From: Candidatus Desulfolinea nitratireducens
Lineage (GTDB): Bacteria > Chloroflexota > Anaerolineae > Anaerolineales > Villigracilaceae
DNA: 33,831 bases
Direction: 5' to 3'
Assembly: GCA_014382535.1 (NCBI GenBank)
Contig: JACNJN010000097.1
Span: 1-33,831 of the forward strand
Part shown: piece after piece, positions 27,305 to 33,365 of the stretch
Position numbering within the stretch: position 1 is the first letter of the stretch
How the letters are laid out: each line of letters opens with the position of its first letter
Made by a program: the position numbers and the translations under genes
Notes under the pieces: model-generated
What the model saw: only the letters and a program-made list of their open reading frames with translations
Database searches by the model: none
Told to the model about the DNA's origin: nothing

Positions 27305-27468
27305 CTATTCCTTAAACTTTGCTTCCATCTCCTGGATGACCTCTTCCATCAGATCCACGGCATCTTTTAAGGTCTCGGCATCGAAAGCGAATTTTGCCCC
27401 GGCCGTCTCGAAGAGTTCCGGGAGGGAAACGGTCGAACCCAGGGCCAGCGCCTTGCGATAATCTGTTA
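27305..27468 (-). pseudogene. 3'-end remnant of an M3-family oligoendopeptidase gene
   Basis: On the minus strand one frame reads YITDYRKALALGSTVSLPEL, then FETAGAKFAFDAETLKDAV, then DLMEEVIQEMEAKFKE and a TAG at 27305-27307. This is the characteristic end of M3 oligoendopeptidases, where ALALGG-xxxLPELFExAGxxFxF precedes a long final helix. The rest of the gene (over 1.5 kb) is missing. The remnant begins exactly at the stop region of the aldo/keto reductase gene, as if a deletion or insertion joined them. It is out of frame with the reductase, so it is not a fusion. Confidence 0.7.
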
Positions 27469-28449
27469 TGTATGCCCCAGGATCGGATGTGGTTGGTAGG
27501 CTTCCTCCAATGAAGAAACCTCATCTTCTGAGAGAACGATATCCATTGCTGTGATGGCCTGATTGAGATGTTCCATTTTGCTGGCCCCGATGATGGGAGC
27601 GGTGATATGGCTTTTGCTAAGCATCCAGGCTAGCGCGATCTGGGCGGTGCTCACCCCATGTTTTTTGGCAAGTTCCCCGGCTCGTTCAACAATAGTGAAA
27701 TCTTCATCACGATAGTACATCATATCTGCAAAATCATCACTCTTGGCGCGGACAGTGTCTCCGCCCCCCTCGCGTTTGCGGTTGCCCGCCAGAAATCCGC
27801 GTGCCAGCGGGCTCCACGGAATCAGGCCAACGCCCTGATCGATACACAGCGGAATCATCTCGCGCTCTTCTTCGCGGTAGACCAGATTGTAGTGATTCTG
27901 CATGGAGACAAAACGTGTCCAGCCGTTTGTATCGGCGGCGTGCTGCGCCTTAGCGAACTGCCAGGCGTACATCGAGGAGGCACCGATATAACGCGCTTTG
28001 CCGGCTTTGACGACATCGTGCAGGGCCTCCATCGTTTCCTCGATGGGGGTTTCATTATCCCAGCGATGGATCTGATATAGGTCCACATAATCCATCCCCA
28101 GACGAGTCAACGAAGCATCAATCGCATCCATGATGTGTTTACGGGAAAGCCCGCCAGCGTTGATTTCATCTGTCAGGTTGGAAAATAATTTAGTGGCAAC
28201 GACCACGTTCTCTCGCTTGACACCAAATTCTTTTAGCAGTTTTCCTGTCAGTTCTTCACTGACGCCGTTTGAATATATATCGGCGGTATCAAAGAAGTTG
28301 ATCCCCGCATCCAATGCATTTTTTATAAAGGGGCGCGAGGGTTCCTCATCCAATATGTAGGGGCGCCATTTGGACGTGCCATAGGTCATCATGCCCAGAC
28401 TCAGCCGTGAGACTTTCAGTCCGCTTTTTCCAAGGTTGACGTATTTCAT
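27466..28449 (-). CDS. Aldo/keto reductase
   Basis: This 327-residue NADPH-dependent AKR starts MKYVNLGKSGLKVSRLSLGMMTYG, the usual beginning of YajO/YdhF-like enzymes. It has the tetrad Asp and Tyr in NFFDTADIYSNG, Lys in VATKLF, and His in YQIHRWD. The C-terminal IIGASKMEHLNQAI segment binds the cofactor phosphate, and it ends YQPHPILGHT, so it appears complete although its stop codon abuts a peptidase remnant. AAAGGAGA precedes the ATG. It reduces a carbonyl substrate that cannot be read from sequence. A MITE-like element lies 43 bases upstream of its start, in its promoter region. Confidence 0.9.
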   Translation of the reverse strand: MKYVNLGKSGLKVSRLSLGMMTYGTSKWRPYILDEEPSRPFIKNALDAGINFFDTADIYSNGVSEELTGKLLKEFGVKRENVVVATKLFSNLTDEINAGGLSRKHIMDAIDASLTRLGMDYVDLYQIHRWDNETPIEETMEALHDVVKAGKARYIGASSMYAWQFAKAQHAADTNGWTRFVSMQNHYNLVYREEEREMIPLCIDQGVGLIPWSPLARGFLAGNRKREGGGDTVRAKSDDFADMMYYRDEDFTIVERAGELAKKHGVSTAQIALAWMLSKSHITAPIIGASKMEHLNQAITAMDIVLSEDEVSSLEEAYQPHPILGHT

Positions 28450-28491
28450 ATTTTCTCCTTTATCCTAAAACCAAATACAAAAAAATAGTAA

Positions 28492-28737
28492 CTCAAGTTA
28501 CGCACTTTGCACAATGAAGATTCGATTTTATAGTTAGCCTTGAGCATTGCCCCCACCCAGCCTCCCCCAAATTCCAAGTGCGTGGAATTTATGGGAGGGG
28601 CATGGCTTTAAAAGTAGTGTTTTTCTCTGAAAAATACTACTTTTACTGGTTCTCCCTATTTTTGCTTTTAGAAATGGGGAGATGTCCGAGAGGACAGAGG
28701 GGCAATACAGCTCAACAAAGAAAGTGCGTAACGTGCG
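28492..28737. mobile_element. MITE-like element with 17-bp terminal inverted repeats and 7-bp target duplication
   Basis: A 246-bp non-coding block is bounded by inverted repeats CTCAAGTTACGCACTTT (28492-28508) and, on the other strand, CGCACGTTACGCACTTT (28721-28737), matching at 15 of 17 positions. Immediately outside, ATAGTAA is directly repeated (28485-28491 and 28738-28744), as a target duplication. Inside, TTGAGC-ATTGCCCC and its inverted partner GGGGCAAT-ACA-GCTCAA form a second nested pair. Three hairpins follow: AAATTCCA/TGGAATTT within CCTCCC/GGGAGG, AAAAGTAGT/ACTACTTTT, and CTCCC/GGGAG. No transposase frame is present, so it would move only in trans. Confidence 0.75.
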
Positions 28738-28753
28738 ATAGTAATAATAAATA

Positions 28754-29215
28754 TTACCACTTTCCAAATTGTGAATATTCTTTGCCTGCGCGGTATTCTT
28801 CTATACGCCGCCTGATCCCGGGAGCAGTATTTTTGGGGAGAGCACCCATTGATAAAAGCTCAACGATCTCGATCTCGCTGTCGTGTTCACCAGTATAAGT
28901 GAAGTCTTCGCAGAGGAAGACAACGATATGATCGCTGCGACCAAAGATATAGTTGGTGTATATGCCAAATAGTTTCATCTCTCCCAAGGTGGCACCAGCC
29001 TCTTCCATCGCCTCGCGACGAGCGGCTTCCTCCAGGGTTTCGTTGCGCTCCATCCCGCCGCCGACGAGGAACCACAGGTCTTGATAGCTATGTTTTACCA
29101 GTAAAACCTTTTCGTCGCGGATGAGTAGAACGCGTACGCCCAGGGTGACGGGTTTTGTGATCGCGGATAAGCGAACGTAGATTTGGTAGAGGAGTTTAAG
29201 GAAAGAGCAGTTCAT
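28754..29215 (-). CDS. Nudix hydrolase
   Basis: This 153-residue protein has a full Nudix box: G-GMERN-E-TLEEAAR-REAMEEAG, fitting GX5EX7REUXEEXGU with the glutamates that bind magnesium. It sits after strands LGVRVLLIRDEKVLLVKHSY and LWFLVGGG. Such enzymes hydrolyse nucleoside diphosphates linked to another group; the target here is unknown. It starts 8 bases after the preceding stop with no strong binding site, so it is likely translationally coupled to the 280-residue protein. Its stop is 16 bases from the MITE-like element. The gene appears to be the last of a pcrA-led unit. Confidence 0.9.
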   Translation of the reverse strand: MNCSFLKLLYQIYVRLSAITKPVTLGVRVLLIRDEKVLLVKHSYQDLWFLVGGGMERNETLEEAARREAMEEAGATLGEMKLFGIYTNYIFGRSDHIVVFLCEDFTYTGEHDSEIEIVELLSMGALPKNTAPGIRRRIEEYRAGKEYSQFGKW

Positions 29216-30080: not shown

Positions 30081-33000
30081 TTAGGAAAGAATTTCCAGCT
30101 TCGCCAGACTCGCTGCGAGGCGCTTGATCCCCACGCTCTCGAAAACGATGGTTACGGTTTCGTCGCCGTCTTCGAGCTTGCTGCTGAGGACGATGCCCTC
30201 ATCCCAGGTGGGATGGCGGACTCGCGATCCCATTTTGTATTTTGCCTCCATAACGGGAGCAGGCTGCTCTGTCGAGCGTCCAGAAAAGCTCGACAAAGAA
30301 GGGGTAGACCACCTCGCCTGAGAGCGGGATGCGGATCGAGAGACACGTCCCGCGCGGGATTTTCCGAGCATCAGATCTTCGGGGATATCATCCAGAAAGC
30401 GGGAGGGGTAGGTCGCCTCGGCATAGCCCCGTCCACCACGCTGCACCGAGCGTACGAGATAAAGATGGTCTTTTGCACGAGTGATGCCTACATAAAAAAG
30501 GCGGCGTTCCTCGGCCATCTCTTCGGGTTCATCGAAAGAGCGGTTATGCGGCAGCAAGCCATCATCCAGCCCGACGATGAAAACCACGCCAAATTCGAGT
30601 CCTTTTGCGGCGTGCAGGGTCAGCATCGTGGCCGCATTTTGCCCTTCGGTAAGCGTGTCCTGGTCGGAGATCAGGGCCACATTTTCAAGAAATTCCGTCA
30701 TTGTGCGCTGGTCATATTCCTCAGCCAGGCGACGCAGCTCCAGCACATTTTCCCAGCGGTCAATGCCCTCATCCGTGCCGTCATCGAGATGGTCCTGATA
30801 GCGAATATCGGCGATGACCTTATCGAAAAGTTCGCTGATCGTCAGGATATCAGATGATGCGCGCCACTCTGCAAAGAGATTGCCAAAATTGGAGAGAGGG
30901 GATGCTGCGCGCGCGGAGAAGGAATCCCAATAAGGGGATTTTTTGCCACGAGAGAGATCGAGCAACACAGCGCCGGGAGAGCTGCCAGCAGCCCGAGCAA
31001 CCTGATGCAGGTCTGTGAGCGTTTTTTTGCCAATCCCCCGTGGCGGTGTGCTGATCACGCGCGCCAGGCTGACCTGATCGCTGGGATTATGGATCAGCCG
31101 CAGATAAGCGATGACATCTCTGACTTCACGACGGCCATAAAATCGCTGAGCCCCAACGAGTCTGTAGGGCATCTGTGCACGTAGGAAGGCCTCTTCCAGG
31201 AGGCGGGATTGGGCATTGGTGCGGTACATGATCGCACAGTCGCTGGGTTGGACGGCCCCATTGTTGGTGATCTGAAGGATGGTGTCAACGATGAAGGTCG
31301 CTTCGGCATAGTCATCGGCAGCTTCAAAATAGGAGAGCTTATGCCCCTCGCCACGCTCGGTGAAAAGTTGTTTGCGTGTCCGTTGGGGATTGCGATCAAT
31401 GACCGCCATCGCTGCATCGAGGATATTCTGTTTGGAGCGATAATTCTGCTCGAGGAGAATGGTTTTCGTATTGGGGTTATCCTGCTCAAAACGGTGAACA
31501 TTTCGGTAATCTGCCCCGCGCCATCGATAGATCGAATTGTGAACGACAATACCGCTAGCAAGATAATTATGTAAATTATCAACTTCTATATCATAAACGT
31601 CCCCAATATAGGGTTCGCGAGATATTTCTACGATAATATCTTCGACAATTTTCCCATCCTTTTCAACAGCTACTATCATGGAGGGATGAAGTTGACTAGT
31701 TGGCATCAAGTTGAAACGGGGTGATAAAGGGGCATCGCCCTTATCAACCAGAAATGCGCCAACAAGAATTTCTGTGTTGCCCACATTTTTACTAAGTTCT
31801 TCTGCTACTGCATGAATATCATTATATTTCAGCCGATTAAATCCAATACGCCAATTGTTTCGGCTACGAATGCGTGGATTATAGCCTTGCTCTTGTAACT
31901 TCTTTGCTAACCCTTCTTCACTACTCCACAGATCAACGCGATGAGCATGCCACGGTGATTGTTTCGTTTTACGCCCATCACCAAAATAACGGATATTGAT
32001 CAAATTGCGATAAGTTCCTTGCGGAAGATAGTGGGGATATTTTTCATCGATCTCCAAATCACCCATGAGCCGTTGAGCGTTTGATCTTGTATCTATTTCT
32101 TCAAAGAGATGATTAACCTTTTCTTGTGTGAAGCGCATTTTACGTCCGCTTGTATGGAAAACGGTTGTGGGGATACCGTAGCTGAATGCATAAAATGCTT
32201 CCCAATAATGGGCTTCTGCTCTATCTTCACAAACTTTTAAAACCCAGATTTTGTCAGCTTTCTCTTGATTGCTGCGAACTTGCAAACCAATTTTTATAGA
32301 TAACCCATCACTGCGCGAATGAGAAGCAACCCCTACTCTATAGCCCTTATCCTTGCGATACATGAGATAAACATAATTTAAATTAGCACTAAGCCCGAGC
32401 CGTGCAAAAATAATGTGGTTTGGTGTTGCACGGAAAGAATAGCCCTTTTGAGTTTTAACAGACACCAATTCGCCTTCAAAATATCTTTTGCCAATATGAC
32501 CAATCCGAGATGGAAGTGTCGATCCGCGCCCGCTTGCGGCGATGACCTGATCCCCGATTTTTAGGTCGGCGATAGATTTATTTCCCTTGCTTGTAAGGAT
32601 GCTTGTTTCTGGTGGAAAACATTGATCCGGATCTCCGACGACAAAGATATTATGATGGAAGGATGCCAGATGTTTAAGCAGCGTGTACTGGGCGATATTG
32701 GTATCCTGAAATTCGTCTACAAGGATATGCTGAAAACGCTCCGAATATTTCTCACGGATAGCCGGCTCTTCTTCCAGCAGGCGCGCTGTCATCATTAATA
32801 GATCGTCGAAGTCGAGGGCGTTGTTCTCGAGCAGGAGCTCCTGATAACGGGCATAGACCTGCTTGACGACCTCATCACGGTAGGTGGTGGAGGGATATTG
32901 GTCTGCGCGGATAAGCTCGTTTTTTGCATTGGATATCGATCCATGCACTGAGCGGGGTCGATAGCGTTTCTCATCAATGTTCAATTCACGCAAGGCGCTC

Positions 33001-33365
33001 TTGACCACATTGATCTGATCATCAGCGTTGAAGATGACGAAATTATTATCAAAGGGAAGATGCTCTACTTCACGACGAAGGATGCGGGCACAGACGGAAT
33101 GGAAGGTTCCCAGCATCAGCCCTTGAGAAAATTGAGGGCCGATCAGATTTTCAACACGTTCTTTCATCTCACGGGCGGCTTTGTTGGTAAAGGTCACGGC
33201 CAAAATTTGATAGGCGCGTACACCCTGCTGACCAATCAGATAAGCGATGCGTTGTGTCAGTACGCGCGTCTTGCCAGAGCCGGGGCCGGCGAGAACCAGA
33301 ATAGGGCCAGTACCGGCGGTAACAGCCTCTTGTTGTTGGGGGTTGAGAGAGTCGATAGAATTCAC
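30081..33365 (-). CDS. pcrA: PcrA/UvrD-type DNA helicase interrupted by an intein
   Basis: The 1094-residue precursor contains a superfamily 1A 3'-5' helicase of about 732 residues once the intein is removed. The start GTG (33363-33365) gives MNSIDSLNPQQQEAVTAGTG, the Q-motif region. Walker A is GPGSGKT at residues 27-33 and Walker B is VDEFQD at 216-221. Motif III begins GDPDQ at 244-248, is split by the intein, and resumes SIYRWRGAD. Later motifs include LLEQNYRS, LTLHAAKGLEF and VGITRAKDHLYL. The tail is a Tudor-like domain with GSRVRHPTWDEGIV. It unwinds DNA in repair and replication restart. A strong promoter (33465-33493) drives it; no clear ribosome binding site is seen, and an inverted repeat lies in its leader. 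Confidence 0.95.
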   Translation of the reverse strand: MNSIDSLNPQQQEAVTAGTGPILVLAGPGSGKTRVLTQRIAYLIGQQGVRAYQILAVTFTNKAAREMKERVENLIGPQFSQGLMLGTFHSVCARILRREVEHLPFDNNFVIFNADDQINVVKSALRELNIDEKRYRPRSVHGSISNAKNELIRADQYPSTTYRDEVVKQVYARYQELLLENNALDFDDLLMMTARLLEEEPAIREKYSERFQHILVDEFQDTNIAQYTLLKHLASFHHNIFVVGDPDQCFPPETSILTSKGNKSIADLKIGDQVIAASGRGSTLPSRIGHIGKRYFEGELVSVKTQKGYSFRATPNHIIFARLGLSANLNYVYLMYRKDKGYRVGVASHSRSDGLSIKIGLQVRSNQEKADKIWVLKVCEDRAEAHYWEAFYAFSYGIPTTVFHTSGRKMRFTQEKVNHLFEEIDTRSNAQRLMGDLEIDEKYPHYLPQGTYRNLINIRYFGDGRKTKQSPWHAHRVDLWSSEEGLAKKLQEQGYNPRIRSRNNWRIGFNRLKYNDIHAVAEELSKNVGNTEILVGAFLVDKGDAPLSPRFNLMPTSQLHPSMIVAVEKDGKIVEDIIVEISREPYIGDVYDIEVDNLHNYLASGIVVHNSIYRWRGADYRNVHRFEQDNPNTKTILLEQNYRSKQNILDAAMAVIDRNPQRTRKQLFTERGEGHKLSYFEAADDYAEATFIVDTILQITNNGAVQPSDCAIMYRTNAQSRLLEEAFLRAQMPYRLVGAQRFYGRREVRDVIAYLRLIHNPSDQVSLARVISTPPRGIGKKTLTDLHQVARAAGSSPGAVLLDLSRGKKSPYWDSFSARAASPLSNFGNLFAEWRASSDILTISELFDKVIADIRYQDHLDDGTDEGIDRWENVLELRRLAEEYDQRTMTEFLENVALISDQDTLTEGQNAATMLTLHAAKGLEFGVVFIVGLDDGLLPHNRSFDEPEEMAEERRLFYVGITRAKDHLYLVRSVQRGGRGYAEATYPSRFLDDIPEDLMLGKSRAGRVSRSASRSQARWSTPSLSSFSGRSTEQPAPVMEAKYKMGSRVRHPTWDEGIVLSSKLEDGDETVTIVFESVGIKRLAASLAKLEILS
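31536..32621 (-). other. Intein in the PcrA helicase (362 residues) at motif III
   Basis: Residues 249-610 of the precursor are an in-frame protein intron. The N-terminal splicing block starts CFPPETSILTSKG with Cys1. Block B is RATPNHIIF (Thr66, His69). The C-terminal blocks are GDVYDIEVDNLHNYLASG and VVHN, with penultimate His361 and terminal Asn362, and the first C-extein residue is Ser. Removing it joins GDPDQ to SIYRWRGA, exactly the conserved helicase motif III. Between the splicing parts, an insert of about 220 residues (80-300) is large enough for an endonuclease. No LAGLIDADG block is visible. The DNA is AT-richer than the flanking helicase sequence. Confidence 0.93.

Follow-up and report, generated by a model that had tools for sequence, protein, structure and literature searches.

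In the window, by which we mean the whole 33,831-nucleotide stretch of DNA analyzed here, a gene for a NUDIX protein (28754 to 29215, minus strand; PF00293, 65.9 bits) is followed by a co-directional gene for an aldo/keto reductase (AKR; 27466 to 28449, minus strand; PF00248, 273.6 bits), and the two are separated by 304 bp. This spacer contains a noncoding element of 248 bp (28491 to 28738), the register of which was set by comparison with relatives. The element is bounded by terminal inverted repeats of 18 bp that match at 15 of 18 positions and start with ACT, i.e., ACTCAAGTTACGCACTTT on the left (28491 to 28508, plus strand) and TCGCACGTTACGCACTTT on the right (28721 to 28738, minus strand). 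The corresponding ends in relatives are ACTGATGTTACGCA or close variants thereof, and the left and right repeats differ from the family end motifs by 1 to 2 and 3 to 4 mismatches, respectively, in 14 bases. Sequence reading identifies the 5-mer TAGTA as the target-site duplication on the left (28486 to 28490) and on the right (28739 to 28743), and for the left copy the length of an empty site matches. The sole open reading frame of at least 90 aa that reaches into the element (106 aa; 28578 to 28898, plus strand) runs antisense to the Nudix gene.

An earlier, sequence-only reading of this region had described a 246-bp element with 17-bp ends (15 matching) and a 7-bp direct repeat, ATAGTAA. The terminal inverted repeats, the direct repeat, and the symmetrical inner pairs that it listed are all found in the sequence; however, the inverted repeats extend over 18 bp, and the proposed extent and left boundary do not hold because that element started 2 bp too far in. 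Similarly, the direct repeat exists, but the duplication itself is TAGTA with one additional A on each side, and on each side the extra A's comprise one flanking base and one element base. The relatives further show ends that start with ACT rather than with C, and duplications of 5 to 6 bp rather than of 7 to 8 bp. The 248 bp contain no transposase gene. A perfect 12-bp inverted pair (28497 to 28508 and 28721 to 28732) is the single one in the 33.8-kb window with arms 150 to 330 bp apart; because three mononucleotide shuffles of the window together gave one such pair, this pair alone is not far above chance. The reality of the element is shown by the dispersed family and the empty site described below and not by the inverted pair alone.

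For the empty-site comparison, we used the three closest relatives of the AKR within the genus (L309, L310, and L311). The gene order is kept in one of the three: in L310 (G004:C195), the Nudix gene (64% identity) is located directly upstream of the AKR gene (83% identity) with 51 bp between them, and L309 and L311 have no visible Nudix neighbor and are uninformative. The difference in spacing between the window and L310 (304 − 51 = 253 bp) corresponds to the element plus one duplication (248 + 5 bp), and G004 therefore has an empty site at this position, which rests on one genome because one of the three closest AKR relatives keeps the gene order. The window flanks, when joined over the insertion site, align through to G004, where the sequence immediately around the site has diverged. 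Because the two genes are co-directional and just 51 bp apart in this relative, a shared Nudix-AKR transcript would probably contain a large hairpin as a result of the insertion. For both neighboring genes, the element is probably just a passive insertion; a regulatory effect on them is conceivable.

We next consider the distribution of the element. Using blastn, we found the element itself and six partial interior matches in its own genome, and no second full-length copy was detected in this assembly (97.88% complete, 223 contigs); three other end-like motifs in the same genome are all unpaired, and two of these lie at contig ends. Matches to the element are present in 25 of 60 relative genomes (best 12 or fewer candidates scored per genome) and are mostly short hairpin matches, while interior matches of more than 100 bases occur in three genomes of the same genus (G004, G007, and G008). 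With at most 1 mismatch, the end motif was found in 8 of the 9 genus genomes, reaching 41 matches (20 + 21) in G007 vs 0 to 1 for the reversed control. The exact motif is present in 70 of 150 genomes of the family, covering 15 of 26 genera, and a degenerate form of the motif gave 134 + 127 matches in G138. Blastn against plasmids and phages gave no match to the element, and the strict pattern for the terminal inverted repeat pair had 0 matches in the genome contig database, from which near records may be left out.

To define candidate elements, we used paired ends located 50 to 350 bp apart, at loci that had been fetched because of either an end motif or an interior match. At least one end of each pair was allowed no more than 1 mismatch, and neither end more than 3; pairs with fewer than 6 flanking bases were excluded, and nested pairs of tandem dimers (e.g., L160 and L192) were scored separately. 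Exact duplications of 5 bp or more directly flank 28 of 49 candidates in the genus, the window element being one of the 28, vs 0.9% in a mixed-flank control, and 46 of 77 candidates in other genera vs 2.9%. Pooling the 74 duplicated elements, some of which are not independent because they belong to tandem dimers, yields a palindromic target, T-TANTA-A, in which position −6 is T in 64, position −4 is A in 60, position −2 is T in 69, and position +6 is A in 68 elements. We note that L160, L192, and L183 in genome G025 are tandem MITEs of this family in which neighbors share one duplication, such that the same 5-mer appears three times around two elements. Thus, the MITE proposed in the sequence-only reading is borne out by dispersed relatives whose flanking duplications differ and by the empty site in one relative. 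That reading had regarded a lack of other copies together with the lack of an empty site as speaking against a MITE; a second full copy is indeed not found in the own genome, but an empty site does exist in G004.

Several insertion sequences (ISs) in other genera have the same ends. One of them, L229 (also L261; genome G083), was found among the 18 PF01609 matches obtained from 6 of 7 high-copy genomes outside the genus and is a 699-bp, internally deleted parent copy with the same ends, the duplication TAATA, and a truncated gene. Searching with its transposase fragment gave matches in 32 of 152 family genomes, and 7 of the 30 loci fetched from this search have a long transposase frame between matching ends. 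These seven full-length parents of 1104 to 1116 bp, from seven family genomes of other genera, encode an IS701-type transposase, and all three of the transposases tested passed the NCBIfam model transpos_IS701_2 (351.8, 339.4, and 353.6 bits; cut-off 250). Four parents (L265, L266, L267, and L268) have ACTGATG-type ends (A) on both sides, with 1 mismatch at one end of L266, and three (L262, L263, and L264) have ACTCACC-type ends (B) on both sides, with 2 mismatches in each end of L264; none of the seven has one end of each type. Duplications of 5 to 6 bp flank five of the seven parents, and none was detected for the other two. The transposase frame of L267 holds one in-frame stop (TAG), and in L262 the stop codon of the transposase lies inside the terminal repeat. 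The search with the L229 fragment gave no match in the window's own genome. In the genome contig database, the transposase group is present in MAGs titled Chloroflexi, Anaerolineae, and Anaerolineales as well as in other phyla (best 80 of 178 relatives, 79 loci).

The PF01609 transposases of the genus itself (24 matches) were also considered as parents and rejected: none of the 24 loci is surrounded by a close pair of A-type ends, and they have just single motifs or pairs with 3 to 4 mismatches in 14 bases (L129 and L140), which is chance level. Separately, L144 (also L281; G008:C25) is a more distant IS with the inverted ends TAGGACTTACGCAAA (L144, 2 to 1092) and a PF01609 transposase that is 28% identical to the L229 fragment used as the query.

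The suggestion in the sequence-only reading of an IS4-superfamily transposase is supported in a more precise form, because the parents with the same ends encode IS701-type transposases, and IS701 is separated from IS4 in the available text of PMC2266710. The same text gives a duplication of exactly four bp for almost all IS701 members. The parents resemble this family in passing transpos_IS701_2 (3 of 3 tested) and in having a single ORF, but they and the MITEs described here duplicate AT-rich targets of 5 to 6 bp; because the parents make duplications of this length and not of 4 bp, we refer to them as IS701-type and not as plain IS701 members.

Parents and MITEs have approximately 13 to 20 end bases in common and nothing more: when the 74 duplicated elements were compared with 8 parents by blastn, just 5 of the 1052 alignments were 26 bases or longer, and the longest spanned no more than 34. 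Because just the ends are shared, mobilization in trans rests on ends and duplications, both of which suggest that the element was mobilized by an IS701-type transposase and that such a transposase would have been present in the lineage at some time. With its degenerate ends, the window copy is now probably immobile. The combination of end types also differs between parents (A/A in four and B/B in three) and MITEs. Hybrid A/B ends were found in 34 of the 46 duplicated MITEs of other genera (e.g., in G025, G068, and G122), and the 28 duplicated genus MITEs comprise 14 A/A, 11 A/C, and 2 A/B elements plus the window copy, which is BC/C.

The element thus combines terminal inverted repeats, a target-site duplication, short length, and the absence of a transposase gene with dispersed copies at different sites in relatives (its own genome having the six partial interior matches) and with autonomous ISs that have the same ends, namely, the seven full-length parents in other genera. 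By all features that could be tested, it is a MITE. Altogether, we assign a probability of about 0.9 to the reading that the element is a nonautonomous 248-bp IS701-type MITE inserted between the co-directional Nudix and AKR genes.

The inner layer of the element, which the sequence-only reading had described as symmetrical pairs, consists of two REP-like hairpins, which are found singly elsewhere as well, a point that reading had overlooked. The two REP-like hairpins are in inverted orientation around an A/T-rich middle hairpin. Unit 1 (28546 to 28602, minus strand) consists of a hairpin at 28561 to 28598 and the foot GCTGGGTGGGGGCAAT on the minus strand; unit 2 (28651 to 28706, plus strand) consists of a hairpin at 28651 to 28682, a small hairpin at 28683 to 28696, and the foot AGAGGGGCAAT; and the middle hairpin (28609 to 28645, plus strand) has 17-base arms that are 94% complementary. 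In the own genome, relatives of unit 1 (L002, L003, and L004) and of unit 2 (L006 and L007) stand alone. A search for the main hairpin pattern gave 5 matches in the own genome and 28, 27, and 23 in G004, G007, and G008, respectively, vs 0 for the reversed control. When 19 distinct hairpin copies were checked for MITE ends with up to 3 mismatches, 16 had no such end within 230 bp, 2 had one, and 1 had both; one copy (L294) is close to a contig end. Among the 28 duplicated elements of the genus, 13 contain one or more of four REP-like motifs, and the remaining ones have different cores, many of which are palindromic. In an alignment of 11 end-to-end elements with a window-type core, in which both ends of L039 and one end of L054 each depart from the motifs at 3 positions, the middle hairpin differs in length and sequence. 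The REP-doublet core probably entered the MITE lineage before the latter spread in the genus. We also observed that a hairpin arm in L040 and L045 is split by a 23-bp insert of the type TCGCG[T/A]AGCATACTC[G/A]AAGAGTG and that the hairpin in L052 is split by a similar insert of 21 alignment columns. These inserts are putative very small mobile repeats that resemble the small dispersed repeats of cyanobacteria.

Such a core raises the question of whether the element is instead a REPIN, i.e., an inverted REP doublet moved by a Y1 RAYT transposase, with the terminal inverted repeats and the direct repeat being incidental. The core indeed has the two inverted REP-like palindromes and the spacer of a REPIN, its hairpins are dispersed elsewhere mostly without MITE ends (the 16 of 19 copies above), one doublet (L051) has no recognizable MITE ends, and Y1_Tnp matches are present in all nine genus genomes (37 matches). 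However, the outer ends and a duplication of 5 bp or more are found together in 28 of the 49 genus candidates, and it is the outer boundaries that the empty site matches. Moreover, none of the 30 Y1_Tnp loci examined among the 37 carries the hairpins, as searched with four strict patterns in flanks of up to 1.5 kb per side, and reading of the hairpin ends revealed no GTAG tag. We therefore consider this explanation very improbable. Even less probable is that the element is the internally deleted remnant of an IS that was formerly at this very site and not a MITE that moved as such. Deletion derivatives of parents do occur elsewhere, as exemplified by the 699-bp copy L229/L261, but the interior contains no transposase remnant, as judged from the lack of alignments longer than 34 bases between the 74 elements and the 8 parents. 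The interior is also found in 10 other elements at other places, and the unit itself was therefore copied.

The third explanation, a cis-acting RNA structure such as an attenuator or processing hairpin that is under selection between the Nudix and AKR genes, whatever its origin, is slightly less improbable than these two and still quite unlikely. It is favored by the position between co-directional genes and by a very stable fold on both strands: relative to dinucleotide shuffles, RNA of the plus strand (246 nt) folds with −104.8 kcal/mol (z −8.8) and RNA of the minus strand with −93.5 kcal/mol (z −6.9). This confirms the idea in the sequence-only reading that the inner symmetry can fold, with an RNA fold far stronger than those of shuffles; DNA of the minus strand gave −55.2 kcal/mol (z −8.5, also vs dinucleotide shuffles). 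Nevertheless, the element is missing at the same place in G004, and the consensus fold of the 11 relatives had no gain from covariation (covariation term +1.79; two-sided changes in 5 of 49 pairs, with the middle hairpin aligning poorly and hence hardly tested). What maintains this fold is mostly plain sequence conservation, which gives no support to an RNA function. Rfam models over 28300 to 28900 gave nothing above the gathering score, the best match being LOOT RNA with 18.8 of the 46.4 bits needed. Finally, no terminator-like site was found (0.5 expected), and the single promoter-like site (0.7 expected) is on the strand opposite to the genes.

An IS701-type MITE with a REPIN-like core is known in kind and unusual in combination, and its two unusual points are the REP-doublet core and the 5- to 6-bp duplication of the IS701-type parent. 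That MITEs are tied to IS families and have strong folds is already known, as described in the available text of PMC11578231. MITEPye1, as presented there, is likewise short, noncoding, and intergenic with IS-matching terminal inverted repeats, direct repeats, and predicted long stem-loops; it differs in being tied to IS1182 and present in low numbers, whereas for the window element the associated IS is of the IS701 type, the core consists of two REP-like hairpins, and the family ends are far more numerous in individual genomes, as in G138. As for REPINs and BIMEs, the accessible portions of PMC3116915 and PMC3733652 describe an inverted pair of REP-like hairpins with a spacer and single hairpins elsewhere, as observed here. 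By contrast, no GTAG tag was recognized in the window core, none of the 30 Y1_Tnp loci examined among the 37 bears the hairpins, and the doublet is enclosed by DDE-type terminal repeats. In the parts available to us of the literature on MITEs, IS701, REPs, small dispersed repeats, and Chloroflexi/Anaerolineales, this MITE family is not described.

These results link a very abundant MITE superfamily of one uncultured bacterial family, which is probably of the Anaerolineales, to its parent IS group, provide a target rule for that superfamily (T-TANTA-A with a 5- to 6-bp duplication), and show that IS701-type transposases can be associated with duplications longer than the published 4 bp. For genome annotation, the element family accounts for many of the structured repeats between genes in these bacteria. 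The REP core is relevant to the way in which REP-like repeats lacking a RAYT partner become dispersed. A more speculative scenario, which we consider doubtful, is that an IS701-type MITE lineage took up a REP doublet and subsequently became the vehicle spreading REPs through the genus, such that some of the lone hairpins would derive from MITE insertions, as their seeds or remnants, rather than being RAYT products. If true, MITE-borne REP spread and hybrid-ended MITEs would represent cross-mobilization between two transposition systems.

Elsewhere in the window, a gene on the minus strand (30081 to 33365) encodes a UvrD/PcrA-type helicase split by an intein. The protein comprises a UvrD-helicase domain (residues 7 to 249), a Hint module (248 to 322), an intein splicing domain (288 to 610; PF14890, 42.9 bits, cut-off 35.8), and a UvrD_C domain (636 to 971).
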